Positions 4,108 through 60,130 of a stretch of DNA of 64,000 nucleotides are shown piece after piece (positions within the stretch are counted from its first letter, which is position 1; the number at the start of each line of letters is the position of its first letter). The position numbers and the translations under genes were made by a program. The DNA is taken from IMG/VR virus record IMGVR_UViG_3300012209_000008, positions 1 through 64,000 of that record. One strand, given 5' to 3'. This DNA comes from a virus. The notes beneath the pieces are model-generated. The model was given only the letters and a program-made list of their open reading frames with translations, ran no database searches and was not told the origin of the DNA.

Positions 4108-5051
4108 GACGGCTCCTTCGCAGGGAACACAGTGGGAAGATGCCAGCGGTAACTACTGCGCTCCTCAATCATCCGCGCCACCAGGTCCAGATCATGCACC
4201 ACATCATCCAGGAGGATCTGCCGCCACGTCGCGAAGCGACCCACGCTGTAGACCCCGAAGCGGTCCGTCATGGCCAGGATGAACGCCCGCCGCACCGGAT
4301 CCGGAATCGGCTGCAGCTTCCCGTAACGCTGATGATGGAGACCAATGGCGGTGTATGCCGTCCGCGACGGCAGTCCAAAACAATCCTGGAGGACGTGCCG
4401 CACGGTGATGTCCGGCGTCTCGTGAACCAGGTCCGCAAACTCCAACGTGAGGCCAGTGCCGGTGAAACTGGCCCGGTAGGGCAAGTCCTCGATCTCCGGA
4501 AAGTAGACCGACTGATACAGGTCCACCTCGGGACGGGTCACCAACACCTGCACAGTCCAGATGGATCGGTACTGAAACGGCGGACGGTCCGGCCACTCCA
4601 CCAGGGCCATCAACTGGTCCATGGGGATGGTGCTGATCATCGGCCGGGCCCAGTCCTCTGGCAAGTGTTCGGCGGTGAGCGCCGTGTCGTACTGGACGGA
4701 GACGCTCCGCGCTAGCTGATCGATGAAGTCCGGCGGGGCCACCCAGCGCTCCGCCGGGGCCAGGTTCAAGATGCTCCGCTCCTGCACCCGCCCCAGCACC
4801 TTCTGGCTGTAGGCATTGGCCATGGCCAGCGTCGGCGTGGTCACCAACTCTCCCTTCCACCAGGCAGCCTTCTGGACATTCACCTTCCGGAACGGGATGC
4901 CAGTGGCCCGGCTCACCGCATCACTCCGGAAGCGGAGCACCGCACTGTGATTGTTGGGGAGGCTGGGCTGCGCCTCACACACCAACGGCGTGTGCCGCCG
5001 GAGGACATGTGCGGCGAGGAGACCCGCCATCCCGGCGCCCCAAATTATCAC
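4104..5051 (-). CDS. FAD-dependent oxidoreductase
   Basis: 315 residues from GTG at 5051, which overlaps the preceding stop and has GGGAGG upstream. The N-terminus is a classical dinucleotide-binding Rossmann motif (IIWGAGMAGLLAAHVL, GxGxxG at residues 4-9) followed by an acidic residue after strand 2 (VCEAQP), typical of FAD binding. No closer subfamily is evident. Related amine-oxidase-like proteins occur in some phage thymine-modification loci. Here the gene is directly fused by overlap to thyX. Substrate unknown. Confidence 0.78.
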   Translation of the reverse strand: MIIWGAGMAGLLAAHVLRRHTPLVCEAQPSLPNNHSAVLRFRSDAVSRATGIPFRKVNVQKAAWWKGELVTTPTLAMANAYSQKVLGRVQERSILNLAPAERWVAPPDFIDQLARSVSVQYDTALTAEHLPEDWARPMISTIPMDQLMALVEWPDRPPFQYRSIWTVQVLVTRPEVDLYQSVYFPEIEDLPYRASFTGTGLTLEFADLVHETPDITVRHVLQDCFGLPSRTAYTAIGLHHQRYGKLQPIPDPVRRAFILAMTDRFGVYSVGRFATWRQILLDDVVHDLDLVARMIEERSSYRWHLPTVFPAKEPS

Positions 5052-5233
5052 GGTGCCTCCCTGAAGCCGCGGATGGCTTGGAGGACGGCCTGACGGTGGG
5101 CCGGACTCCCGCGCGCTACCCGGTACAACTCCCAGATCCGATCCCGCAGGGCCTGGGGCACCTGGAACCAGTGGGTCGGGCAAAAGATGCGCCCCATCGC
5201 GATCTGGATGTGACAGATTGGACACCGGTTCAT
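5048..5233 (-). CDS. Small zinc-finger protein
   Basis: 61 residues starting at ATG 5233, overlapping the RusA-like stop. CPICH at residues 4-8 and FCPTHWFQ at about 18-25 form a CxxC...CxxH metal site, followed by a helix (QALRDRIWELYRVARG). Similar short zinc proteins are common next to phage recombination genes. Probably a nucleic-acid or protein adaptor. Confidence 0.72.
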   Translation of the reverse strand: MNRCPICHIQIAMGRIFCPTHWFQVPQALRDRIWELYRVARGSPAHRQAVLQAIRGFREAP

Positions 5234-5838
5234 ACGTTCTCCAAGAGCACTTCTACCCGCGGGTTGGCCGGGTCCAGATACAACCGAGAGCCATCCCAGC
5301 TGACCAGCCACTTGTCATCCTCGATCACCTCCCGGACTTGCAACAGATCGGCCAGCCCCTGGTAATAGCCCACCGCGTCCCCCGGGCCGTCCACATCCCG
5401 AAAGAAGTAGGCTCGACAGTTGAACTCCACCGGCGGCGCCGTCCGACCATCCCACTTCAGCTCCGCCGTCTCACACCACCGGGTCCAGGCCGCGCTCGGG
5501 ATGTGCACCTTGTGATGGCCCCGCTGGACCACGGCGCCGTGGTTCTTTTTGGTGCGGGGCGCCCCCAGCACCGTCACCCGGATCCGCAGGGGCCGTTCCG
5601 GACTCACCCAGGCCTCCGCGGGAAGCGTACTCGTGACCACCGTCTCGCCGTTAACCTGACGCACACTGAACACCCCCAAGGGGAAGCGCATGGCCGGGGA
5701 TTGGGCCGCGGCCTCTGGCGACGCGAACCGCGCCGCCTCCGCCAGCTTGGCCGTGGTCATCGGGCCGATCCCCGTCATCTTGGCGAACCAGAGCCGCTTG
5801 CCCTGGTACCGTTGCGCAGACTCCAACACCCAGTCCAT
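5230..5838 (-). CDS. RusA-like Holliday-junction resolvase
   Basis: 202 residues. The C-terminal 120 match the RusA endonuclease family: a first strand IRVTVLGAPRTKKNHG, then an acidic segment RDVDGPGDAVGYYQGLADLL, and EVIEDDKWLVSWDGSRLYLD, giving the clustered aspartates that bind metal. The first 75 residues are an extra domain not typical of RusA (about 120 residues) and contain WFAKMTGIGPMTTAKLAEAA. Predicted to resolve recombination or replication branches before packaging. The catalytic aspartate spacing is slightly unusual, so the call is by overall pattern. Confidence 0.78.
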   Translation of the reverse strand: MDWVLESAQRYQGKRLWFAKMTGIGPMTTAKLAEAARFASPEAAAQSPAMRFPLGVFSVRQVNGETVVTSTLPAEAWVSPERPLRIRVTVLGAPRTKKNHGAVVQRGHHKVHIPSAAWTRWCETAELKWDGRTAPPVEFNCRAYFFRDVDGPGDAVGYYQGLADLLQVREVIEDDKWLVSWDGSRLYLDPANPRVEVLLENV

Positions 5839-6124: not shown

Positions 6125-7882
6125 TCAGAAAGTGTCTCCTGGTCCTTGCGGGTGATCCAGCAGCTCATCCCACGGCTCCACCCGCAGAAACAAGCTCCGG
6201 TCCACCACACTACTCTTGTAGCGATGTTTCCCGATATGAATCCCCATCAACCCCGGCACAAGCACCTCGGCCAATGGCATCCGAGCCGCGCGCACCGCGG
6301 CCAGTTGTTCCTTCTCCACCCCTGGTCGGAGCACCTTGTGGAGCATCAGAATCAGGTCCGGCTCCTCCTCCAACGCGCCAGACTGTTTCAGGGCTGTAGT
6401 CGGCGGTGGACTCACGAGTGCCAACGGCCCTGCTTCTCGCGGGGGACGGTTCGCTTGCGCGGTGAGAAGAATGGTGAGGTGATGTTCCTTGGCCAACTCC
6501 TTGGCCCGGCGGACGGTCTCCGTGACAGCAGCGGTCAGGTTCCCATTCCCATTGTCCTCGCCGAAGTTCATTCTGAGGATATGATCCAGAATCACAAAAC
6601 GAAACCCCCACTGGGCAGCTTGTGCCACATGGGCGGCAAATTGATCGGGCGTCACCCGACCCTGTTCCACAAAGTACAATTGCCCGTGATACCGCTCCCG
6701 GAGCCCGCTCACGGCCGCGCTGAGGCGCGCGGCGATATCTTCCGGCGCCAACTGAAGTTCTTGTGCAAGCCAACTCAGCTCATTCTCCAAGAGCCGAACC
6801 GGCGGAATATGTAAGGCCAAGGCAGCCAAGCGCAGCCACGCCTCCTCTGGCGGCATCTCTGTGGTCAACGCATAGATCCCCCAGCCATGGCTCGCCCAAT
6901 GAGTAATGCAGTTCATTACGAAGGTGGTCTTGCCCAAGCCGGGGCGGGCGCCTAACACCACCATCATCGTGCGCCGCAGTTTGCCAAGGGTGGCGTCCAA
7001 CGTTTTCCACGGCCAGACCGCCAACTCCGTCGCGGGCTGGTCGCGGAGCGCATTGGCCCTGGCAATTTGATCCGCCGTAATGCGGTCCCGATCCGCCGCC
7101 GATAAGCCGAGCGATCCAGCCTCGGCGAGGAGTTGCGCCGCCAAATGCTGGTAGACGGGCCCGTGCACAGGCTGATACCGTGCCACATTGGCGGCGATGG
7201 CCTGGACCTCCCCCTCCGGCAACGGTGGGCGGCAGCGCCGCTGGTTTACTGCAAGCAGCGCGATAGCAATCTCCTCCTGTTCCATTCCGCGACGCCGCAT
7301 GGACCCGGCCAAACTCGTCAACGTGGTATTGCGTTCGCCGGGAGGGAGCGGCTCGCCCGAGGCCAGCACTACGGGCTCTAGTGTCCCACCGTTCCGGAGC
7401 CGCCCAACGATCCCAGCCGGGACAGAGAGCGCGTCGCTCGTCTTACCGCGCCACCGGTAGACCGTCCCACTGGGATGAATCGACGGGGGCATAATCACAT
7501 ACCCTGCATCGCCCCGGACATCCACATGCGGCGCGAGTACCCGGTTCGCGATGGACCCGCCACCAGGGTGCTGGAACCACAGATGCTGGCCGCGCGCTGT
7601 CAGAACCCGGAGCGTCGGAATGGCCAAGAGTCCCAGACGTTCGGCGGCCACAGTGCCCTCAGCCCCATCCAGATCAAACACCAGATGCCCTGTGCGCCCG
7701 GGCACCGCCGCAATGTTGTATTGAGGGTTCTCCTGCCACCAGCGCTGCACTTGCACTAGATCAGTCGTGGCATCCTTGAAGCCGTTCGGCGTGGCTGGTT
7801 CCTTTCCGTGGGCCCGGAGCGGGAAGATGGGCCAGCCCCGTTGGGCATAGGCAGCTGCGGCGGCTGCCAGATCAATCGACAT
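6125..7882 (-). CDS. Primase-polymerase / DnaB-type helicase fusion
   Basis: 585 residues with two enzymes in one chain. Residues 1-160 are a bifunctional primase/polymerase (Prim-Pol, AEP superfamily) domain with the metal-binding FDLDG (D70, D72) and GQHLWF and GDAGYVIMPPS. Residues about 180-235 resemble a primase C-terminal linker (PPGERNTTLTSLAGSMRRRGM). Residues 285-560 are a RecA/DnaB-like hexameric helicase with Walker A GARPGLGKTT (311-320), Walker B RFVILDH (428-434) and LLTAQANRP. It probably unwinds and primes phage DNA, and is the replisome core visible here. Confidence 0.92.
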   Translation of the reverse strand: MSIDLAAAAAAYAQRGWPIFPLRAHGKEPATPNGFKDATTDLVQVQRWWQENPQYNIAAVPGRTGHLVFDLDGAEGTVAAERLGLLAIPTLRVLTARGQHLWFQHPGGGSIANRVLAPHVDVRGDAGYVIMPPSIHPSGTVYRWRGKTSDALSVPAGIVGRLRNGGTLEPVVLASGEPLPPGERNTTLTSLAGSMRRRGMEQEEIAIALLAVNQRRCRPPLPEGEVQAIAANVARYQPVHGPVYQHLAAQLLAEAGSLGLSAADRDRITADQIARANALRDQPATELAVWPWKTLDATLGKLRRTMMVVLGARPGLGKTTFVMNCITHWASHGWGIYALTTEMPPEEAWLRLAALALHIPPVRLLENELSWLAQELQLAPEDIAARLSAAVSGLRERYHGQLYFVEQGRVTPDQFAAHVAQAAQWGFRFVILDHILRMNFGEDNGNGNLTAAVTETVRRAKELAKEHHLTILLTAQANRPPREAGPLALVSPPPTTALKQSGALEEEPDLILMLHKVLRPGVEKEQLAAVRAARMPLAEVLVPGLMGIHIGKHRYKSSVVDRSLFLRVEPWDELLDHPQGPGDTF

Positions 7883-10915: not shown

Positions 10916-11467
10916 CTACAGTCCCGGCAACACCGTGGTGGCGTTCTTGAGGCTCAGCTGACCGTCCAGCGCGCCCAAGACCGCCTCCAGGTGTTCAATC
11001 TCCTGGGCCAACACCTGCTCCTCAATGTTCACCACGACGTCCTGTGGCTTGGGGGCGGTCCCCGCCACGGCGACGGCGGAGACCACCGCGACGCCCTTGG
11101 CCAGCGCCTCCCGCCGCACCTGCTCAATGCGGACGCGAAGTCCGTTGAGGTACGTCCCGCGCTTGGGCGCCACTTCCCGGCGCCAGGTCAGCCAGTCCTG
11201 GAGGGAGCGCGTATCCCCGTTCACCGTCACCAGCGTGGCGGCGTTGGCCGCGAGGATGGCCCGGCGGATGGCGATGAGCCGGTCCTCCAGGTCCCCCATG
11301 GCCTGCTCCTCGGCCTTGATGTACGCGGCGGAGCCACCCTCGGCCACGATGGGATCCTTGAAGTATTCCTGGCGCGCCAGGTACTGGGTGATGGTTTCGC
11401 GCTTCTTGGCCAGCCGCTTGTCGATGGTCTTGACCTCGGCGAGCGCTTCCGTGATCGTCAGCGACAT
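10916..11467 (-). CDS. Hypothetical coiled-coil protein
   Basis: 183 residues, strong ribosome site (GGAGAGAAAAGGGA). Predominantly helical with heptad-like charged stretches (LAEVKTIDKRLAKKRETITQYL at the N-terminus, EEQVLAQEIEHLEAVLGAL near the C-terminus). Similar proteins with this layout occur in many phages, but no function is known to me. It is the last gene of the block separated by GGYNN pentamer arrays. Confidence 0.75.
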   Translation of the reverse strand: MSLTITEALAEVKTIDKRLAKKRETITQYLARQEYFKDPIVAEGGSAAYIKAEEQAMGDLEDRLIAIRRAILAANAATLVTVNGDTRSLQDWLTWRREVAPKRGTYLNGLRVRIEQVRREALAKGVAVVSAVAVAGTAPKPQDVVVNIEEQVLAQEIEHLEAVLGALDGQLSLKNATTVLPGL

Positions 11468-11490: not shown

Positions 11491-11817
11491 AACCTTACCG
11501 TGCCCCGCCATACCGCACCAAGCCTCGCCCGACCTCACCGCACCCGGCCGGACCCTGCCTCGCCCAGCCCGACCCACGCCTTACCCCTAACCACGCCCGA
11601 CCGCACCGGACCTGACCATACCAAGCCCCGCCCGAGCTGACCGGACCAGAACCCTGCCATACCACACCCGACCGTGCCTTGCCCCGCCCAGCCGGACCAC
11701 GCCCTACCACACCCTACCACACCGCGCCCTGCCTAGCCTTACCACACCGTACGATACCATGCCGCACCCGGCCGGACCAAGCCCAACCCTGCCTAGCCTT
11801 GCTCAACCCAGCCTCAG
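11491..11817 (-). repeat. Degenerate pentamer array A (GGYNN)n
   Basis: About 65 consecutive five-base units read NRCCN on the plus strand, i.e. GGY-N-N in the transcript, with occasional one-base phase slips. The third core base is always pyrimidine in the transcript, and the two spacer bases look random. The array begins just after the stop of the upstream gene and ends about ten bases before the ribosome site of the next one. Confidence 0.9.
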
Positions 11818-11819
11818 AT

Positions 11820-12464
11820 CTACTCCGTCAACAACTTGAACCCCGCCACGGTGAAGCGACCATAGGTGGGCCGATGATCGCAGAGCCCGGCAATGAGTCC
11901 CGCGGAGTTGGCCAGCTTGGTCAGCAGCTCCGGCGTCACGTAGTGGGGCAGCGTCACCAGGACGATGAAGCTGAGGCGCCAACCCTCCTTGAGGGCTGGA
12001 CGGACCCGGGTGATGCCTTGCCGCTGCACCGGCGCCCGTCGCTTGTCCTCGTAGTCCCACTCCTTGCGCCGCGGCTCAAACGGGGCCACGTCATCCAGGG
12101 GAATGATGGCGGCCTTGACCAGATCCCGGAGCGACTTGCGCGGGCTCCGCGGGTCGCTCTCATAGCGGGCCGCCTCTTGGAGTGCCGCGGTGAAGTTCAT
12201 CCCCGGCACGCCCAGGGTCCCGTCCGTCATCCGGTACACGTAGGACTCCAGGTTGTCGGTTTTCTTGGCCTTGCTCCCTTTGGCCGACGCGCCCTTCTCC
12301 TTCACCGCTTCCACGTCCCAGCGGTGGAAGAGGATCGGGGCCACGCCCACCACGGAGATCCGCGCGCGATAGGGCTGTTGCAGCGCCACGGCCTCCTTCC
12401 CACCGTTGTCCGTTTGCTTCGCATCGAGTCCGATGCGCTCAGTCGCTCCTGCGGGCGCTTTCAT
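11820..12464 (-). CDS. Conserved phage protein of unknown function
   Basis: 214 residues from ATG 12464 (AAAGAGG upstream); the upstream open frame is only the pentamer array. Motifs include PILFHRWDVEAV, a Lys/Ser-rich segment (GASAKGSKAKKTDNLESYVYR), GVPGMNFTAALQEAARY and a C-terminal CDHRPTYGRFTVAGF. I recall this architecture from uncharacterised proteins near phage recombination genes. Its C-terminal RPTYGRF strand is faintly like RAMP-type folds, which is speculation. Confidence 0.75.
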   Translation of the reverse strand: MKAPAGATERIGLDAKQTDNGGKEAVALQQPYRARISVVGVAPILFHRWDVEAVKEKGASAKGSKAKKTDNLESYVYRMTDGTLGVPGMNFTAALQEAARYESDPRSPRKSLRDLVKAAIIPLDDVAPFEPRRKEWDYEDKRRAPVQRQGITRVRPALKEGWRLSFIVLVTLPHYVTPELLTKLANSAGLIAGLCDHRPTYGRFTVAGFKLLTE

Positions 12465-12489
12465 GGAAACCTCTTTCAAAGGAGAAGGG

Positions 12490-12943
12490 ATACCACACCT
12501 GGCCTCGCCCCACCTCACCACACCTAACCAAACCTGGACGCACCAGACCCTGCCATGCCAAACCGAACCACGCCGAACCGGACCCGGCCTTGCCACGCCG
12601 CACCGAACCCCACCACACCCAACCTTACCACGCCGTGCCGAACCGAGCCGCACCTTGCCTAACCCTACCCTGCCTGACCAGGACCTGCCGCGCCATACCG
12701 CGCCGTACCCTACCTGACCGGACCGTGCCTTGCCAGACCAAACCTGAACCCACCGTGACAGGACCGACCGAACCTAGCCACACCGCACCACGCCGAACCT
12801 CACCCCACCTTGCCCCACCGGACCATACCCGAGCACACCACGCCCGAGCCAGGCCACGCCTCACCATACCGCGCCGTACCCAACCTGGCCTTGCCCCGCC
12901 GCACCGTACCACACCAAGCCACGGCTCGCCTCACCGCGCCGCG
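12490..12943 (-). repeat. Degenerate pentamer array B (GGYNN)n
   Basis: The longest of the three arrays, about 90 units of the same RCCNN (plus) / GGYNN (transcript) pattern, filling the gap between the stop of the recombination-type gene and the ribosome site of the next gene. A few single-base insertions shift the phase. Confidence 0.9.
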
Positions 12944-12944
12944 C

Positions 12945-13952
12945 TCAGAATGGTAAATCATCATCCTCCGCCTCTAGGATGAGAGCATCACGCCGCTGCT
13001 GTTCTGCTTTCAGAAGCTCCACCACCGGTCGCCACACGGCTGGTCGTTTGACCTTGGTGGTGAGTGCCAGGATCATCGCCTGCAAGCGGTCTGGCGGAAT
13101 CTCGCGAACGCTTTTTCCGGACCAACCCTTCAATGCCTTGGCGCGTGGTAAGAATGGTCCAAGGGTTCGATCCTCCTGCTCTTGCTTCGGGGGCTGGCGC
13201 TCACTCGGGGGCGCAGCCGCCTCGCCCGGATCCGCTTCCTCCGCCGTGGTAAAAATCTCGTCCGCGGCTGTGGCCACGATCACCGCTTGGACAAAGGCCC
13301 GCTTCCCAGCCCGCGCCACCACGTCATTGAGCGCCGCACGCCAGTCCGGTTTGGTCTTGACGCGACTCTCTCCTTGCTCATCCTTCTCAATCACCGCGCC
13401 ATACTTGCGCTGGGTCCAAATACTCCGGAACCCGGCCTCGGCGGTGGAGCAGCTGCCGACGGCGGAGCCGACCTGGCGCCGATAGTTGTCCAGCAACGTC
13501 ACCTCCACCGTCTGGCTCACGAAGTCCGCCGTCTCCGTCCCGCCCACCAGCTTGGTCTCGCCTTTGGCGTAGCGGAACAGCTGGGCGAGCTTCTCGCCGC
13601 CGCGCTTGGTGAGGGCCTTCTGCTTGCTCCCGGGCACGACGTAGTAGTCATGGAGCTTGCCTGGGGCGGGAGCGCCCTTGCTGTCGTACTCCGCTTCTTG
13701 GAGGTACTCACGGACAAACTTGAGCAGCGTGTCCCGCTGAATCTTCCACCAGGCCAGTTGCTTCTCCAGATCCAGCGGCCGCTCCAGCATCGCGGCTTCT
13801 AGCGCCAGCCCGCGCGGCACAGCCGTCTGCGACTGCTGATCCCAGACGTGTCCCGTCGGCACCAAGCCCTGGGCCTGCGCGGCGGCGGCATCCAACAGTG
13901 CCTTCACCTCGGCCTGTGCTGAAGGCTTCTCAGTAACGGTCTTGTTGGTCAC
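12945..13952 (-). CDS. Putative ssDNA-annealing/recombination protein with SSB-like tip
   Basis: 335 residues from GTG 13952, directly after AGAGGAGGAGC. The core (DYYVVPGSKQKALTKRGGEKL..., then VGSAVGSCSTAEAGFRSI and DVVARAGKRAFVQAVIVATAADEIFT) resembles a widespread phage family whose members carry GTKKPTL-GAEKL and KKRAxVDAxLxxTxASDxFTQD motifs and usually sit with replication genes. The C-terminus is acidic and ends EDDDLPF, very like the bacterial SSB tip that recruits host repair proteins. I infer single-strand DNA binding or annealing. The activity is not proven for the family. Confidence 0.7.
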   Translation of the reverse strand: MTNKTVTEKPSAQAEVKALLDAAAAQAQGLVPTGHVWDQQSQTAVPRGLALEAAMLERPLDLEKQLAWWKIQRDTLLKFVREYLQEAEYDSKGAPAPGKLHDYYVVPGSKQKALTKRGGEKLAQLFRYAKGETKLVGGTETADFVSQTVEVTLLDNYRRQVGSAVGSCSTAEAGFRSIWTQRKYGAVIEKDEQGESRVKTKPDWRAALNDVVARAGKRAFVQAVIVATAADEIFTTAEEADPGEAAAPPSERQPPKQEQEDRTLGPFLPRAKALKGWSGKSVREIPPDRLQAMILALTTKVKRPAVWRPVVELLKAEQQRRDALILEAEDDDLPF

Positions 13953-13969
13953 GCTCCTCCTCTGGTTGG

Positions 13970-14024
13970 GCCGAACCAAACCACGCCACGCCACACCAAG
14001 CCGAACCCGGCCTCACCGCGCCGC
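13970..14024 (-). repeat. Short pentamer array C (GGYNN)n
   Basis: Eleven in-phase units of RCCNN on the plus strand (GGYNN in the transcript) lie between the stop of the upstream zinc-protein gene and the ribosome site of the recombination-type gene. Confidence 0.8.
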
Positions 14025-14398: not shown

Positions 14399-14894
14399 TA
14401 TGCTTTAGACCTTTAGGCTTAGGTAGGGAGTCCCCTAAGCTATGGCCTCCCTTTACTTTCCATTGCTTCCCTATTACCTTCTATTCGGTGACCGGATTGG
14501 CCCCGGGTAGCCTAACCTCCCGCGGAAGCTCTCATTAGCCAGTCCCGTCCCTAGGGGGATGGCAGCAGTGCCGCAGCGGGGCTGGCCCCGCAAGACCTCC
14601 GATCCATAGCGCGAAGCGAACGTACCGACCCCGCAGACGGCGTGTTGCTCACTCAAGGGCTCTGGCTCCGGCTATCCCGCAGGCAGCGCTGGACAAGCGA
14701 AGGGGAATGGACCCCAGGCGGCGTCGGTCTCAGATGGTCAGCGGCGGAGTACCAGTCCACAGCCGCGGTCCGAGGGAACACTCGCGCGAACGATCAATGG
14801 CCATAGAGGCCGGGGTGCAGATCCCGGAGCCTCCCAGCAGTGGGGTGCAAGGTCCCCGCGTTGGCCTTCCTCTTCTACGTCTGTAGTGCTCTCA

Positions 14895-26000: not shown

Positions 26001-28709
26001 TTAGAGAACCATCACTTGAACTGTATCCAATGTTAAGGTGCAGGCCCCTACCACAAGGCCCCGAATGTCCAGCAGCAGATCGGCTCCCAGGTTCTCCGTT
26101 CCTGTTGCCCGTTCATGGAACATATTGACCCCTGTGTTGTTGTTGCCCAGAGATTTTATGGAGTTGGCCACTTGCACTGAGGCTCCAGTTGTGCGTGTCA
26201 AGATACACCGGACAAACCAAAGCGTTCCCGTAGCCACTGTGATGGTGTGAGTCATGAAGACCGTGTTCCCCAACTTGATCTTGACCGTCCCGCTCGTGCC
26301 CCCAGCCACCTGTCCCTGGAGCTCGATGATGAGGGCCCGCTTGTTGACGCCCAGCGTGTTGAGCTTGATACTCTTAGAGCTGAGCGACACCTCAGTGATG
26401 GACGTGGTGCTTTGGTTGGCGTCCTGGTGGATGGTCCGCGCGAGGGCTGAGAAGTAGGTCGAGTCATGCACATACAGGCTGTGGTTCGGATCCCCCACGT
26501 ATTCCAGCTCGCCCTCCGCCGCGTTGGCCTCCGGCGTGAGCCCGGTCAGCGGCTCCAGGTAGGCGTGCGGCTGCTGGTCCGTCCCGTCCGACGTGGCCGG
26601 CAGCCGGAGGCCCCGCCGTGCCTTCCCCGCCGCCGACGAGGAGGTCCACGTGACGGCGTAGTTGTCCGTCCGGTAGGACGCCGCGAAGCAGAGCACCCGT
26701 CCCGTGCCGGACGGGTCGGTCGAGAACCCGGCCACCTGCACGTTCAGACGCAACCGGAACCACACGTGGGTCGGCGCGTCCGTAACCACGATCACCGGGC
26801 TGTACGTGGCAAGCACCTCCGTCGTGGTCGTCGAATCGACGCTCCAGGACCCGGGGGCCTGGGTCCAGCTCGTCCCACTGTTGATGGAGTACTCGACGTA
26901 GACGGTGGCCGTGCAGTCGCGCTCGATGCTCCCACCGCCGTTCACCTTGGCACCCACGCGGAACGTGACGGTGTACTTGTCGTCGTAGGCGTCGACGTTG
27001 TCACCCTCATTGGTGGGGTCGCCCAGTTTGCACCACAGACGGCTCGCTGCGATCACGTCGCCGCTCGTGTTGACGTTCTGGGTGAGGGTGTTGATGCCAT
27101 TGTCGGCGCCGTCCGGGTCGGTCCACCCCTTGGAGCCCGCCGTCAGGCCCACATCCTTCGAGGATCGGGCCGTGAGCACGATGCCCGCCGGGCTGGTGTG
27201 GCTCCCCAGCAGCGCGGCAAGGTTGTTGGTCCCGGTCCCGGCGTCGCCCCAGACCTCGACATTGTTGTTCTGGAGCATGACCCGGTTCATGCTCGTGTCG
27301 CCATAGTTCCCGGTCACCGAGTGTTGCAGGGTGCGGAACAGGGCCCCGCCGAGCGCCAGCAGCTGGCCGTTGAAGGTGGCGAGCCCGCTCACCAGTAGGG
27401 AGACGGCGCGGATGATGGCGTACACCACCAACCGCCCCAGGCTGTCAATGGTGAGCGAGAGCCTGACACAGTGGCCGGTGTTCGGCGTGTCCGTCCCGGC
27501 AAACGTGCTCCCGTTCAGCGTAAAGTTGTCGGCGTCGACCACGGTGATCGTCCACGGGGTCCCCGCCGGACTGTTGGCCGCCGTCACGCCCAGGTGGCCA
27601 TGGATCACCACCGAGTCCCCCGTGGCGTAGCCGTGCCCGGTAATCTTGATGTTGATGAGCCCACCGGACGTGCTCGCCGCCTCCACGAGCTTGGGCGTCT
27701 GCCCCAAGCGCATAAAGAACGACGTGGCGGGGAAGTCGATGAAGCTCTGCATCCCGTCGACGGTGTCGGGATCCGCCACGCCGGTGGAGAAGCGGAGCGC
27801 GTAGAGGGAGTTGGGCGGGGGCACGTCATAGAGCGCCCCGAGCCCGATCCGGAGGTAGGCGTCATCGAACCGCGCCACCGTCCCGGTCCCTGTGGCGTCA
27901 ATCTCCGCTATCAGCCGGACAAACTTCTTGCCGGCGGGGACCAGGTACTGGCCCTGCACAAACACCCACCCAGCCGTGTTCTGGTTCGGCGTGGAGACGG
28001 TGACCGGCGCGCCCTTGTCCTTGTCGGTGGCCTCCAGCGTGTACCGCACATTGGCGGTCCCGGACTCGCGGTAGATCCAGCCACCAAACTGGACCAGGTC
28101 GTTCTGGTTCACCTCGAAGTAGCGGCTCTTGCCCACGTCATCCCCAGGCGTCACTTGGGCGGCCACGCCGGTGGTGGAGGTGAGCCGAAGATACCAGTTG
28201 CCCCCGTTGGCATTGGCCGGGGTGTTGATGGCCGACGCCGCCCCGGCTTGCTGGAACCAGAAGGCCAACCCGTCCTCAAAGCCGGAGTTGGGGAGGATGT
28301 TCTGCACCTGCGGGCCCATCCGCGCCGTCTGCTGCTTCCAGGCTTGGGAGGTCTTCGCCGCGGCGGCATCGGAGACGTTTCGCTGCACGGTCGCGGAGAG
28401 GCGGTCGGCCACTCCGAGGTTGACCCAATCGGAGTAGGGCCCGGGCCCCCAGGCATTGCCATTCAGCCGGGTCCGGTACCACCAGATCACGCCGTTGGTC
28501 GCCAACTTGTCCACATAGTGGATCCCGTCCGGCGGGACCACCTGGGCCACCACGAGCACCGCTTGGGCTCCATTGGGGGCGCCAGCGGCGTCCGGAGCGC
28601 GCCACAACTCCACGGGAATCGTGGGGTCGGCGCCCGGCAGTACGGTCACCATGATCCCGGTCGGGGTCAGGGTGCCGTCGTTGACTTCAATGGTGGCGGC
28701 GAGTGCCAT
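26001..28709 (-). CDS. Tail fibre / receptor-binding protein
   Basis: 902 residues, almost wholly beta-structured. An N-terminal Ig/FN3-like segment (PVELWRAPDAAG, YRTRLNGNAWGPGPYSDW) is followed by a jelly-roll carbohydrate-binding-like module (NILPNSGFEDGLAFWFQQAG) and further repetitive beta domains with IDSLGRLVVYAIIRAV. The size, composition and position after the other tail-tip genes and before lysis indicate a distal tail fibre or receptor-binding protein. Confidence 0.78.
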   Translation of the reverse strand: MALAATIEVNDGTLTPTGIMVTVLPGADPTIPVELWRAPDAAGAPNGAQAVLVVAQVVPPDGIHYVDKLATNGVIWWYRTRLNGNAWGPGPYSDWVNLGVADRLSATVQRNVSDAAAAKTSQAWKQQTARMGPQVQNILPNSGFEDGLAFWFQQAGAASAINTPANANGGNWYLRLTSTTGVAAQVTPGDDVGKSRYFEVNQNDLVQFGGWIYRESGTANVRYTLEATDKDKGAPVTVSTPNQNTAGWVFVQGQYLVPAGKKFVRLIAEIDATGTGTVARFDDAYLRIGLGALYDVPPPNSLYALRFSTGVADPDTVDGMQSFIDFPATSFFMRLGQTPKLVEAASTSGGLINIKITGHGYATGDSVVIHGHLGVTAANSPAGTPWTITVVDADNFTLNGSTFAGTDTPNTGHCVRLSLTIDSLGRLVVYAIIRAVSLLVSGLATFNGQLLALGGALFRTLQHSVTGNYGDTSMNRVMLQNNNVEVWGDAGTGTNNLAALLGSHTSPAGIVLTARSSKDVGLTAGSKGWTDPDGADNGINTLTQNVNTSGDVIAASRLWCKLGDPTNEGDNVDAYDDKYTVTFRVGAKVNGGGSIERDCTATVYVEYSINSGTSWTQAPGSWSVDSTTTTEVLATYSPVIVVTDAPTHVWFRLRLNVQVAGFSTDPSGTGRVLCFAASYRTDNYAVTWTSSSAAGKARRGLRLPATSDGTDQQPHAYLEPLTGLTPEANAAEGELEYVGDPNHSLYVHDSTYFSALARTIHQDANQSTTSITEVSLSSKSIKLNTLGVNKRALIIELQGQVAGGTSGTVKIKLGNTVFMTHTITVATGTLWFVRCILTRTTGASVQVANSIKSLGNNNTGVNMFHERATGTENLGADLLLDIRGLVVGACTLTLDTVQVMVL

Positions 28710-28718
28710 AGGCCGCTC

Positions 28719-31271
28719 CTAGATGTACACCCGCAACGGGGGCGGGGGCGTGATGGGAACCGGAACCGTACTGGACGTGGAGAACGAGGCCGTGGCGGAG
28801 CCCGAGACGATGCCCGCCATGACTCGGTACTGAATGAGCACGCCGTAGGCTTGACTCGCTACCAGTCCCCACAAATTGAAAAAGTTGGACCCTGGCAAGA
28901 GGCTCGCAATCCGGGTGTAGGCCCCGGAGTCCGGCGACCGCAACCAGACCTCCACCGGCAACGTCGTCTCGCCGTTGGTCCAACTTACCTTCGCGGAGGT
29001 CGCGGTGATGCTGGTCACGGTCACGACACTCGGCACCCCATAGCCCGTGAGGACCAAGCCCGTCGACGTCACCCAAGCCGAGGGCATCTTGAGACTGGCC
29101 CGATCATCCGGAAAGGTCCGCGCCTGGACCCAGAGCTTGAGCCCCGGCGTCAGCTCGCCCAGCGTGATCGTGCTAGAGGTCCGGACCGGGTTGAGCGGAT
29201 ATGCGTGCCAGGACGGGTCCGCGTCTACCGGGGCGGCTCCGGCGCCGCTCGCCGTCAACGCATAGCGCACCTCCGTGGGGCCATCCGCGTGGACCGTCAC
29301 CGCCACCGTGGCGGTGTGCCGCGGATCGGACCCTAACGCGGGCGCTCCCAACGTGGGAGTTCCCGCAACCGCGGCCACCCCCAGATCCAGCAGCTGCAGA
29401 TTGGTGATGAGCTTGTCCCGCGTCACCTCCACCGCGCGGCAGATCCGGGTGCCCCCGCGCTTTCCCGTAGAGGGGTCCGGCAGTGCGGAGACGGCAACCT
29501 GGACCACTTGGCCCTGAATGATGGCGGTCACCGTCGCGGTCCGCCGACAGGGGAGCGTGGTCTTGGTCTCCCCGAATGCATACGGTCGCCGCATCAGGTT
29601 CATCATATCCACCAAGCGGCGCTGAAGGTACACGTCCCGGCTCGCCCCGGCGATGGCCGCATCGCCCTCCATCATCCGGTAACCCCCACCCCCCATCTGC
29701 CACACCTTCTCCCCGAAGTCGCCGGAGCCAATGGCTAACAGTTTTTGCGGATGCTCGATGGGCGCGAGCAACAACGCCTTGAGGGCCGGGTAGGGATCCG
29801 GCAAGACCCCGGCCTTGTCGCGGCCCATGATCGGGAGATCTTCCCACAAACTGGCCTCCGCCGCGAAAATCGCCGCATCCCGATCGTACTCCCAGGTCAG
29901 GGCGGGATCCGCGGCCAGATCCGCATCAGTGAGCAGGGGGAGACCGCCCAACGAGGTCGGCAGCCGCATATCAATCACCGTGAACACGCCCGCCCCATCC
30001 ACCACCAACGCCAGTCCATAGGGCTTGAGGATGTTCTTTTGAATCCAGTCCAGCGCGTTGGTGACCTCTTTCTCGATTCGGAAGCGCGCGGGCGGGAGAT
30101 CGGGGATGGTCGCGGCGCTGATGGTGGTGCTGAAACTCCGGCGCACGTCGCCGTAGACCTTTCCCGTGGGGAGCTTGTCCGGCGAGCGGTACACGGGGCT
30201 GAACTTCCCGCCCAGGATGTCCGCTAGCAGCGTGAGGACATTGGCCACATCGAGGAAGAGGGCGAACCCGTCCGTGGCCATGAAGTCTTGATACATGCGG
30301 AAGGTGACAGCGGTCCCGTTGGCCGGCAACGCGGCGTAGCCGAGATCCGTCGCATCGTCGAGCGGTTGGATATAGAACGCGGTGAGCGCATGATGACCGT
30401 GGACATCCGTGTACTGGCCGAGCATCCCAATCTTGAAGTCACCCTGATTCGCCCCGACATTCCACGTCAGATGGACGCGCGCCGGACCGTTGAAATTCGG
30501 GAGGGTGGCATTGGGGTTATAGGGATCAATGATGTGGGGCCGCACATTAGGCGCCACTGCCCCCAGCAGGTCACTGGTGATGAAATTGGTTGCCACGCCC
30601 GCCACCGACGTCGAGGCCACATCGACCCGGGCCACGTTGGCGAGGGTGGAACTCGCAATCACGATGGGACTCGCGACTGTTCCGGTAAAGTCCGCGGCCG
30701 GGGGCACCGTTCCATAGGCGGCGCCGGTGATCCCAATCGGCATCAGCAGCGGGCGCCCCGCATAGGTGATGGACGTATGCGGTGGTTGATTGAAGAGCGG
30801 GAGCTTGGTCAGCTCGTAGAGCATGTCCCGCACGGTGAGCTGGTACTGGCCCCGGCCATTCAGCGCCAGGCCCTTGATGTAGCCGGTCCAGAAGGCAGTC
30901 CAGGTGACGCCCCCATCCAGCGACTCCTCTGCGAAACACTTGAGCCCACCGAGCTGGGGATCCCCCTGGGCATTCCCCAGGAAGGCAGAGACCCAGCGGT
31001 TGGCATTGATCCCGGGCACGAGCGCGGCATCTAGCAGCTCAAAGGTCATGGTGCCGATGTCCGTGCTCCGCTCCAGCACGTTGACCCGCCCCGTCCGGCC
31101 CCGCGGCAACCCGAGGTAGGGCTTCCACCCCGTCAGCGACGGGAGCGTGGTGACCTTGAACGGATCACTGTGCACCGCGCCCCCGGGCGGCGTGAGGATG
31201 GTCGCTTCCGTGAAGTCCACGGAGCGTGGCGCGTAGACCGTCAGCCGGTAGGCCAGGAGGTACGTGGTCAT
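28719..31271 (-). CDS. Tail-tip / baseplate hub protein with FN3 domain
   Basis: 850 residues. The N-terminal half (LPRGRTGRVNVLERSTDIGTMTFELLDA, WTGYIKGLALNGRGQYQLTVRDMLYEL) has a hub/minor-tail character. The C-terminal 250 residues hold at least one fibronectin-III-like domain (SVVTVTSITATSAKVSWTNG). Follows the two paralogous tail proteins in transcription order. Probably part of the tail tip that contacts the cell. Confidence 0.75.
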   Translation of the reverse strand: MTTYLLAYRLTVYAPRSVDFTEATILTPPGGAVHSDPFKVTTLPSLTGWKPYLGLPRGRTGRVNVLERSTDIGTMTFELLDAALVPGINANRWVSAFLGNAQGDPQLGGLKCFAEESLDGGVTWTAFWTGYIKGLALNGRGQYQLTVRDMLYELTKLPLFNQPPHTSITYAGRPLLMPIGITGAAYGTVPPAADFTGTVASPIVIASSTLANVARVDVASTSVAGVATNFITSDLLGAVAPNVRPHIIDPYNPNATLPNFNGPARVHLTWNVGANQGDFKIGMLGQYTDVHGHHALTAFYIQPLDDATDLGYAALPANGTAVTFRMYQDFMATDGFALFLDVANVLTLLADILGGKFSPVYRSPDKLPTGKVYGDVRRSFSTTISAATIPDLPPARFRIEKEVTNALDWIQKNILKPYGLALVVDGAGVFTVIDMRLPTSLGGLPLLTDADLAADPALTWEYDRDAAIFAAEASLWEDLPIMGRDKAGVLPDPYPALKALLLAPIEHPQKLLAIGSGDFGEKVWQMGGGGYRMMEGDAAIAGASRDVYLQRRLVDMMNLMRRPYAFGETKTTLPCRRTATVTAIIQGQVVQVAVSALPDPSTGKRGGTRICRAVEVTRDKLITNLQLLDLGVAAVAGTPTLGAPALGSDPRHTATVAVTVHADGPTEVRYALTASGAGAAPVDADPSWHAYPLNPVRTSSTITLGELTPGLKLWVQARTFPDDRASLKMPSAWVTSTGLVLTGYGVPSVVTVTSITATSAKVSWTNGETTLPVEVWLRSPDSGAYTRIASLLPGSNFFNLWGLVASQAYGVLIQYRVMAGIVSGSATASFSTSSTVPVPITPPPPLRVYI

Positions 31272-57076: not shown

Positions 57077-57447
57077 CCGGCCTGCCGCGCCTGGTAGGCC
57101 CGGACCGCCCGCTTGGCCATGGCCATACACGGGGCACAGGGCGGCCCGTCCCGCGGCGCCACGGTGCAGATGGCCCGCGCCGCGGCCACGGTGGCGGGAT
57201 CCTCCGCGGACCAGTCAAAGGACGCTGCTGCTGGAGGGCCATGGATCCAGCGCTCCTCAACGGAGCGGGCAATGTCACCCAGAATGATTGCCGCCACGCC
57301 CACGAAGAAGCCCTGCGTCCAATGACTTTCAATGAATTGGCTGGCACCCCAGTTCAGGCCCGCGAGGATCCCCAGCGCGAGGCTCCAGGTGAGGAGCATG
57401 CGCGGGAGGACGTGCCAAACAACACGCGTAATCTCGCGGCCCGTCAT
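57073..57447 (-). CDS. Two-span membrane protein
   Basis: 124 residues, ATG overlapping the Ig-like gene stop. Spans at about 14-32 and 44-60; C-terminal segment with CTVAPRDGPPCAPC. Possibly an envelope or lysis accessory. Confidence 0.66.
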   Translation of the reverse strand: MTGREITRVVWHVLPRMLLTWSLALGILAGLNWGASQFIESHWTQGFFVGVAAIILGDIARSVEERWIHGPPAAASFDWSAEDPATVAAARAICTVAPRDGPPCAPCMAMAKRAVRAYQARQAG

Positions 57448-59435
57448 GGCGTCCCCACGGTGCAGAAGGCCCGACCCACCACCGCGGTGTCCGTGACGCC
57501 CAACAGGTCCACGAGGTAGGATCCCGTATACAACGGCAACATGGCCGGGAGCCGGGTGAACCAGCGGGAGGGCACGTTGGTGACCCGGAACGCCCCCACA
57601 CTCAAGAGCACCGGGGTCACGGTCACCCCCATCACATTCACCGCGGCCGTCCCGGACAGGGAGCCCGCCGTGGCGGTGATCGTGGCCAATCCCGGCGCGC
57701 GGAAGTGGGCCAGCCCAAACCCGGTCACCACAGCGATGGTCGAATCGCTGGACGTCCAGGTGGCATCCACGCCCGTGGTCACGGCCCCCGTGGAGTCCCG
57801 CAGGATGGCGTAGAAGGTCTGCGCGCCGCCCTGGGTGGGGCTGAGGCTGGCCGGAACGAGGTAGAGACGGTTCGCCAGGGTCGGTCCGGGGCCTGCAGGC
57901 AGCCGCACCACAATAGTGGCGGTCGCCGTCAGCGCGTCGCTCGTTGCGGTCACCTGCCCCGCGCCCCCGTTCAGCGCGCCCACCATCCCGAGCGGCGAGA
58001 CGGAGACGATGGACGGCGTAGCTGTGGACCACGTGATCGGGCGCCCAAAGAGCGTATTCCCCGCCGAGTCGTAGGTGGTGGCCACCAGTTGGACGGAGGT
58101 CCCCACCACCATCGTATCCAGAGCGGGCGTGACCTCCATCCGCCGGACCGGCACGAGGGTGACCCGCACGACGGTGCTCCCAAAGAGCGCGTTGGTGCTC
58201 GTCGCCGTGATGGTTGCCGTGCCCGGGGCCATCCCGAGCACCCGGCCGCTCCCCGCATCCACCGTTGCCACGCTCGGCGAGCTGGTCGTCCAGGTCACCC
58301 CGCCCAGCACCGTCGCCCCGTTCACGTCCTGCAGCAGCACGGTCGGGAGGACGGTCTGCCCCACGTACAGGCTCATCGTCGTGGGGAGCACCGTCACCTT
58401 GGCGATCGGGTTCACCGGGACGGTGTAGGGGACCGAGACGTTGCAGGTCGTCGCCGAGCCGCTCTCCGCATGCCACGTCCAGCTCCCGAGCGCGGCCACG
58501 GCGCTCTGCTCGGAGCGGAACGCGAAGTTGATGCCGATCGTCTGCTCCATCCCACCCGCCGGGGCCACAAAGGCGGAGTAGGTGTGGGCCGGGACATTCA
58601 CCACCAGACGGAAATGATAGGTGGTGCCGGCCACGTAGGGGATGACGCTCGTGGCGGCGTAGGCGGCGCCGTTCCGCGCATCGATCATCCCGCTCGCGTT
58701 GAACCGCGCGATCACGGCCAGGTCGGAGTAGAGCGCCGTGGACGTCGCGGAGAAGCCCGTCACCGCATCGACCGCGGTCCCGTTCGGGATGGCGTCAAAC
58801 TGGACGGTGAAGCTCCCGGTCTGCGGGCTCAGCGCCGCACTGCCCCACCCCGTGGTGCTGGTCTTGCAACCGACCCCCAGCACCAGTGGCGCCGAGATCC
58901 CGAACGGCCCAAAGGTGCTGGTGCTGTCCCCGGCCCGCACCACCGCCTTCACCCGTTGCGCCAGCGCCGGATAGGCAAGCCGGAAGGTGTCGGCGCTGCG
59001 GGGCGGACTGGCCACCGGCCGTTGATGGTATGTGCCGGGGAGGGCATCGTTGTAGTCCCCGGGGAAAGCAATGGTGATCGTATCGCTCGCCGGAATCAGC
59101 CGGGTGTGGGTGGCAGCTTCCCCTGCGGGCGGGGTCCAGGTCAGGACCACCACCGCCGAGTCCGTCCGCGTCCCCAACGTCGCCGCCACATTGGTCGGCG
59201 CTGCTGGCGCAATCACCTTCCCACCAGGGACCGGCCCATGAAAGCCCGCATCCGCCCAGGCCAGGACGGCCTGGACCCGGGTCCGGCCACCGGGGAACGG
59301 CGGCACGCCATTGCCGCCATCCGTCATCCGGTCCTCGACCAGCCGCCCATTGGGAGCCAACAGGCCCCCCGGCTGAATCAGCAGCAGGAAGGCAAAGCAC
59401 GCTACCCAGCTTGCTGTAATAACAGACCCCCGCAT
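57444..59435 (-). CDS. Secreted protein with Big_2-type Ig-like domains
   Basis: 663 residues from ATG 59435 (GAGGAGCACCAC upstream). Signal peptide (ITASWVACFAFLLLIQPGG), an FN3-like region (PTNVAATLGTRTDSAVVVLTW), a lectin-like beta domain (GFSATSTALYSDLAVIARF), then three bacterial Ig-like group 2 domains near residues 350-430, 435-510 and 520-600, each with TWTTSSPSVATVD-type strands. Cell-wall or surface proteins of this build are abundant in Gemmatimonadota. In the phage it may act as an exported adhesin or surface-coating protein. Confidence 0.78.
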   Translation of the reverse strand: MRGSVITASWVACFAFLLLIQPGGLLAPNGRLVEDRMTDGGNGVPPFPGGRTRVQAVLAWADAGFHGPVPGGKVIAPAAPTNVAATLGTRTDSAVVVLTWTPPAGEAATHTRLIPASDTITIAFPGDYNDALPGTYHQRPVASPPRSADTFRLAYPALAQRVKAVVRAGDSTSTFGPFGISAPLVLGVGCKTSTTGWGSAALSPQTGSFTVQFDAIPNGTAVDAVTGFSATSTALYSDLAVIARFNASGMIDARNGAAYAATSVIPYVAGTTYHFRLVVNVPAHTYSAFVAPAGGMEQTIGINFAFRSEQSAVAALGSWTWHAESGSATTCNVSVPYTVPVNPIAKVTVLPTTMSLYVGQTVLPTVLLQDVNGATVLGGVTWTTSSPSVATVDAGSGRVLGMAPGTATITATSTNALFGSTVVRVTLVPVRRMEVTPALDTMVVGTSVQLVATTYDSAGNTLFGRPITWSTATPSIVSVSPLGMVGALNGGAGQVTATSDALTATATIVVRLPAGPGPTLANRLYLVPASLSPTQGGAQTFYAILRDSTGAVTTGVDATWTSSDSTIAVVTGFGLAHFRAPGLATITATAGSLSGTAAVNVMGVTVTPVLLSVGAFRVTNVPSRWFTRLPAMLPLYTGSYLVDLLGVTDTAVVGRAFCTVGTP

Positions 59436-59446
59436 GTGGTGCTCCT

Positions 59447-60130
59447 CTAGGCGCTCTGCGGCGCCCGTCGCCGTCGATAGATCAAGGTCCATTGACTCAC
59501 GTGCTGATCGCAGCGCCGGTAGCCGCGTTGCACTAACATGCCGCACACATCGCAGGTCGGCGCAACAGGTGAGATGCCCGCTCGGTGCGCACGGTTCGCC
59601 ACGGCCGCCGGGGTGGCGCAGTGGTCGCAGCGCCGCGCCCCGTGGCCCCGACCGACCACCTCCCCGCACCCCTCACACTTTTGCAAACTCCGCGTGCGGA
59701 TATAGTAGGCTTGCTGGTTCAGACGGTTCTGGGTGGCACGCGGCACCCGCACCCGGGGTCGGGCGTCGCCTTTGCCCCGCGCCTCCCGTCGGAGCGCCTC
59801 GCCCATGCCGCCGCACATATACGTGACCGCCCAGGCGCCAAAGTCCCCAATGTGATCTTTCCAGCGGGCTAGCGCGATATAGAACCGCAGACACCCGATG
59901 CTCACCAGGTCATCGCGCTCCAGCGCGCCGAACGGCTCAAACCGCCGGGCAAAGATCCGCGCCCACCCGAGCACCGTCGCGGGACTGGCGTCCGGCGTCA
60001 ACCGCGGAAGGAGTCCCGCCCGCGCACCCTGTCTCGCCGAACTACCGGCAGAAAGGCTGACGCCGCTCCGAACGGTATTGGTTGGTGACGCAAAGCCGTC
60101 AGGGCTAGGAGTGGCGAGCGGGACTGTCAT
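59447..60130 (-). CDS. Sigma-70 region-2-like protein with zinc ribbons
   Basis: 227 residues from ATG 60130 (ATGA overlap). Residues about 50-115 (VLGWARIFARRFEPFGAL, ERDDLVSIGCLRFYIALARW, FGAWAVTYMCGGMGEALRRE) follow the sigma-70 region 2 pattern that binds RNA polymerase and the -10 element. Instead of region 4 the C-terminus has two zinc ribbons (KCEGCGEVV...CDHC and TCDVCGMLV...CDQH). It may redirect host RNA polymerase to late phage promoters. Confidence 0.65.
   Translation of the reverse strand: MTVPLATPSPDGFASPTNTVRSGVSLSAGSSARQGARAGLLPRLTPDASPATVLGWARIFARRFEPFGALERDDLVSIGCLRFYIALARWKDHIGDFGAWAVTYMCGGMGEALRREARGKGDARPRVRVPRATQNRLNQQAYYIRTRSLQKCEGCGEVVGRGHGARRCDHCATPAAVANRAHRAGISPVAPTCDVCGMLVQRGYRRCDQHVSQWTLIYRRRRAPQSA

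Follow-up and report, generated by a model that had tools for sequence, protein, structure and literature searches.

The window, a 64,000-nucleotide stretch of viral DNA (positions 1 to 64,000 of IMG/VR record IMGVR_UViG_3300012209_000008), contains three intergenic arrays of degenerate five-base units that flank a 335-aa gene and a 214-aa gene. On the minus strand, which is the coding strand of the flanking genes, the arrays read (GGYNN)n. The features of the region are listed below; the gene name vipr and the term vrRNA are taken up in the following section.

10916..11467, minus strand: 183-aa ORF downstream of the arrays; weak match to phrog_1491; not conserved beside vipr in relatives
11491..11817, minus strand: GGYNN array 1; tail-less, about 64 units, the frame shifting near 11575-11590 and 11648
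11820..12464, minus strand: vipr, 214 aa; RAMP fold, predicted G-loop GLCDHRPTYGRF, phrog_4652
12490..12943, minus strand: GGYNN array 2; tail-less, about 90 units, interrupted by frame shifts; stops just short of the vipr ribosome site
12945..13952, minus strand: 335-aa ORF with GTG start; phrog_10048, no Pfam match
13970..14024, minus strand: GGYNN array 3; 11 units, a putative single guide inside the vrRNA length of 9-16 repeats given in the available text of PMC13142463
14035..14271, minus strand: ORF of 78 aa, upstream of array 3; contains cysteines and resembles a zinc ribbon by eye; not conserved next to vipr

Each array begins just past a stop codon and extends to the next ribosome-binding site, between co-directional genes, as an earlier sequence-only reading of this DNA had described; its unit counts of 11, 90 and about 65 for arrays 3, 2 and 1 became 11, about 90 and about 64 on recounting, with the coordinates unchanged. 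Over 163 in-phase units the information per unit position was 1.89, 1.74, 0.93, 0.04 and 0.01 bits, and all 16 of 16 dinucleotides were used at the two free positions. The earlier proposal that the GG(C/U)NN form would count in the transcript is upheld, and the core looks constrained. Autocorrelation, suggested by the same reading as a check, was 0.50-0.66 at lags of 5, 10, 15 and 20; other lags gave 0.22-0.37. Perfect GGY runs reached 28 units (3 on the plus strand, 3-4 in ten Markov-2 shuffles). Exact eight-unit matches in the 68.4-kb record fell inside the three gaps in 73 of 73 cases; the opposite strand and the reversed control of this record each gave 0. Regularity is imperfect, with several one- or two-base frame shifts. 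The arrays are a real, non-random feature.

The sequence-only reading had considered two-tier RNA G-quadruplexes, which in the intergenic mRNA would regulate translation of the flanking genes. The G2N3 repeats are compatible with two tiers and every array directly precedes a ribosome site, but this explanation accounts neither for the conserved pyrimidine (0.93 bits) nor for the linkage to one RAMP family, the arrays at other positions around vipr and the NN matches to other phages' genes described below. Folding with ViennaRNA, whose model does not cover quadruplexes, was unremarkable or mildly stable (z -2.46 and -0.33), and the explanation is considered very improbable. No known RNA, hammerhead included, was found with Rfam in the window or in 12 loci of the clade.

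The 335-aa protein is probably a single-strand-annealing or recombination protein, as judged by gene position, since in two phages an exonuclease and an SSB follow directly downstream of its homologues; the recombination-type character attributed earlier to the flanking module is upheld. A scan for relatives of this protein returned none, and its gene is absent from relatives that keep the arrays and is not conserved beside vipr.

Elsewhere in the window, a repeated plus-strand motif close to GAGCGTATCGTGTA occurs at 14893, 15457, 16091, 17808, 19515 and 22130, several copies lying just upstream of short rightward genes. It gave 9 matches with 2.45 expected, a number reached in 0 of 100 shuffles, and is possibly a phage promoter or regulatory repeat. 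Positions 6125-7882 (minus strand) hold one 585-aa ORF combining Prim-Pol, PriCT and DnaB-like helicase domains, and positions 57444-59669 (minus strand) encode a 741-aa protein with three matches to the bacterial Ig-like (Big_2) domain. Comparison of the portal and terminase was uninformative on the host.

The 214-aa protein and its relatives

VIPR is presented, in the available text of PMC13142463 (bioRxiv 2026.04.26.720920), as a newly reported, virus-encoded and CRISPR-related system with a non-contiguous RNA code for reading DNA; it consists of the RAMP protein Vipr and vrRNAs of alternating GGY and NN, and is a proposed ancestor of CRISPR RAMPs. According to the same text, the vrRNAs have a variable region of 9-16 repeats and recognise DNA with a one-nucleotide skip, and RNP formation, dsDNA binding and repression are reported. 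A conserved 3' tail on the vrRNA is shown there for SUSP1-like type II, the array architectures of other types varying, and staggered arrays with overlapping vrRNAs are mentioned (fig. S18).

The gene for the 214-aa protein sits between arrays 2 and 1. The protein has no Pfam family and matches the unnamed phrog_4652. A profile of its family (A1, 78 sequences) matched the solved Vipr of Escherichia phage SUSP1 (PDB 36pp) at E=3.1e-36, and an HMM seeded with the window protein matched SUSP1 ALH47069 (ORF 28474-29061) at E=2.5e-47. Membership in the Vipr family is taken from the profile, because the window protein as a single sequence gave a weak match to SUSP1 Vipr (E=0.014); viral contigs scanned with a single Vipr sequence gave no match, where the profile succeeded. 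Phage SUSP1 served as positive control, and its arrays of 12, 15 and 16 units were recovered. The AlphaFold model of the 214-aa protein has a pLDDT of 91.4, and its top PDB matches in Foldseek are Cas7/Csm3 RAMPs. The conserved C-terminal motif of the family, AGxxVGxGDxRPxxxGxxGRF, is the expected G-loop. Related to CRISPR Cas7 and consisting of a single RAMP domain, the protein is a Vipr, and the locus is assigned to VIPR because the profile matches SUSP1 Vipr and the model matches Cas7/Csm3 RAMPs. The candidate binding partner of the arrays is this protein at 11820-12464, in place of the 335-aa neighbour named earlier. The RAMP fold with G-loop is common to Vipr and the Class 1 CRISPR effectors (Cas7/Csm3, types III-A and VII); identity to those effectors is about 8-15%, the guide information here is gapped, and no CRISPR array of identical repeats with contiguous spacers was seen at the locus, the repeat core being GGY with two-base variables. 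No cas family was found in the neighbouring ORFs scanned.

A scan of viral contigs with the array pattern returned at least 120 stretches, most of which bear degenerate GGYNN arrays; a search of relatives for the same gaps had been suggested by the earlier reading. A relative of the 214-aa protein is encoded in 92 of about 122 loci among the matches listed; nearly all of these loci were found by array pattern alone and two were fetched by protein match. Where loci were collected by Vipr protein only, GGYNN arrays lay within 2.5 kb in 93 of 103, with 168 arrays on the same strand as vipr and 0 on the opposite one. The genome matches of these protein-found loci were mostly Phycisphaerales MAGs, with Stenomitos, Thermomonas, Eremiobacterota and others. 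The Vipr proteins of the clade, from phage contigs and Phycisphaerales MAGs, are about 41-57% identical to that of the window. In many relatives vipr is found amid replication and recombination genes (a Sak4-like ATPase, a DUF669-like protein, a helicase), the Sak4-like and DUF669-like assignments being made by eye. Across the clade, the longest array of a locus measures 23 units in the median and 46 at the upper quartile, the largest reaching 126, and in two relatives (L032, L150) the arrays are divided by repeated tail-like separators.

Two named phages carry homologues. Phage DSL-LC04 (L151, 7647-8579) encodes a Vipr that shares 45% identity with that of the window and bears the annotation of a helix-turn-helix regulator; about 57 GGYNN-like units lie just upstream. 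In Pseudomonas phage LESphi2 (L152), a Pseudomonas aeruginosa prophage, a Vipr homologue is encoded at 4800-5384, and the next gene is a relative of SUSP1 vap1.

The strand bias bears on the proposal that the arrays are dsDNA sites bound by a recombination or packaging protein, their cores lying in phase on one helix face. The five-base period and the adjoining 335-aa protein, which by position resembles recombination-cassette proteins, speak for this proposal; the restriction of arrays to the vipr strand (168 to 0) and their retention in relatives that have no 335-aa gene speak against it, and it is regarded as extremely improbable. Slippage that expanded a neutral, degenerate microsatellite is practically negligible as an explanation, and so is an artefact of assembly. 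The pentamer period is shared with tandem short repeats, and some recent block duplications are seen in relatives' arrays, e.g. in L145. Against slippage, the two variable positions of each unit are fully variable and informative, correlation of NN at unit lags lacked significance for three of the four window arrays tested, the fourth giving a marginal value at lag 12, and the arrays are linked to vipr in a strand-specific manner. An artefact, which the sequence-only reading had named as a possible refutation, is set aside because the same kind of array stands beside vipr in numerous independent contigs, named phages included. Among relatives, substitutions by repeat phase suggested that GG is more constrained than NN; this count is not used as proof, since matching GG is favoured by the alignments in any case.

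One-base-skip matches in the clade

The guides of every locus fetched were compared with the collected DNA, in which the arrays had been masked. Since low-complexity guides had dominated the first all-against-all search (1.1 Mb), guides were filtered for complexity. With a one-base skip, 193 matches were obtained, 75 of them at score 16 or above, compared with 95-123 matches and 5-12 at that score in seven controls. Many of the 75 represent one guide common to related phages, so that unique guide segments provide the fairer count: 6 reached score 17 or more, with 0.6 expected from 20 permutations of guide order. In an enlarged set of 3.34 Mb, the unique segments numbered 6 against 0.5 at 17 or more and 19 against 8.4 at 16 or more; only the stronger segments are trusted singly, because nearly half of those at score 16 are expected by chance. 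The apparent matches of the skip-3 control came mostly from unmasked arrays with the same five-base step, the GG scaffold being present in 64 of 88.

The skipped base was the wobble position in 13 of 19 segments. The best match, 14 of 15 dinucleotides, leads from a guide of L253 to the gene of a DUF3799 PD-(D/E)XK nuclease in L182. Other matched genes encode Vipr, a ResIII-type helicase, a ParB/methylase, RecD2, RecT and YqaJ; the list is biased, most of the DNA searched having come from around vipr. For guides in L199 (6784-6933), L219 (6800-6924), L193 (3119-3423) and L154 (7647-7711), a match to the vipr of other phages is predicted. The matched guide segments are 8-15 units long and end within longer arrays. 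For the clade, the one-base-skip rule holds statistically, beyond the permuted controls. The spacers, once described as random, do show all 16 dinucleotides and nearly 0 bits; they are not junk, and guide information would be carried there.

For the guides of the window itself, no target was found in local scans or in three exact scans of the viral collection, and a comparison with 194 vipr genes was no better than permutations. The exact scans with three window guide cores gave only matches that failed to extend (9 of 11 in one scan, nothing beyond the cores in two others) and were attributed to chance. One eight-unit match of the window to L286 lies outside any ORF and is at chance level.

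Reading of the locus

The window locus is read as a phage-encoded VIPR locus whose arrays give vrRNAs (probability about 0.93). The three intergenic arrays would be transcribed with the operon and yield vrRNAs, in which the GGY parts would act as a scaffold gripped by Vipr and the NN dinucleotides would pair with DNA, one per target triplet, the third base, usually the codon wobble, being skipped. The Vipr-vrRNA RNP would then repress genes of competing phages; the targets predicted for the clade include rival vipr genes, a RecT, PD-(D/E)XK and YqaJ nucleases and a helicase. For the window phage, expression, processing and the targets of its own guides are inferred.

In comparison with the type II exemplar SUSP1 (PMC13142463; 36pp), the locus has in common a homologous, phage-encoded Vipr RAMP, same-strand GGY/NN arrays on either side of vipr and, in the clade, one-base-skip matches. 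SUSP1 differs in its discrete arrays of 12, 15 and 16 units, where 11, about 90 and about 64 are present here, and in its vap1 and, according to the available text of PMC13142463, a conserved tail per vrRNA. The window arrays have no tail and directly adjoin ribosome sites, and comparison of window ORFs with vap1 yielded no homologue. The form of the arrays is thus extreme: continuous, tail-less and far above 9-16 units, with no recognised vap.

To fit the range of 9-16 repeats, arrays 1 and 2 would have to be processed or hold more than one guide. Most likely, the two long arrays are several guides of 9-16 units joined without spacers or tails. An alternative within VIPR is that each long array is one continuous, filament-forming guide read at full length, to which the lack of tails or spacers in arrays 1 and 2 and the long unbroken arrays of other clade members would be suited. 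Several joined guides are favoured because the matched segments are 8-15 units within longer arrays; the window arrays are moreover interrupted by frame shifts, and a single continuous guide is considered unlikely. The long-array architecture may already be described in PMC13142463, in whose available text the staggered arrays with overlapping vrRNAs of fig. S18 possibly represent the same arrangement. It is tentatively proposed that the clade has a distinct VIPR architecture, in which multi-guide arrays without tails, the longest of about 126 units, fill the untranslated gaps of replication or recombination operons and would silence early modules in rival phages, the vipr genes of those phages among them.

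The locus extends VIPR to diverse phages with very long, tail-less guide arrays, and the matches, coming from a clade apart from SUSP1, lend the one-base-skip rule independent computational support. Targeting of vipr against vipr is predicted, and the continuous arrays offer a testable case of how guides get cut from them.
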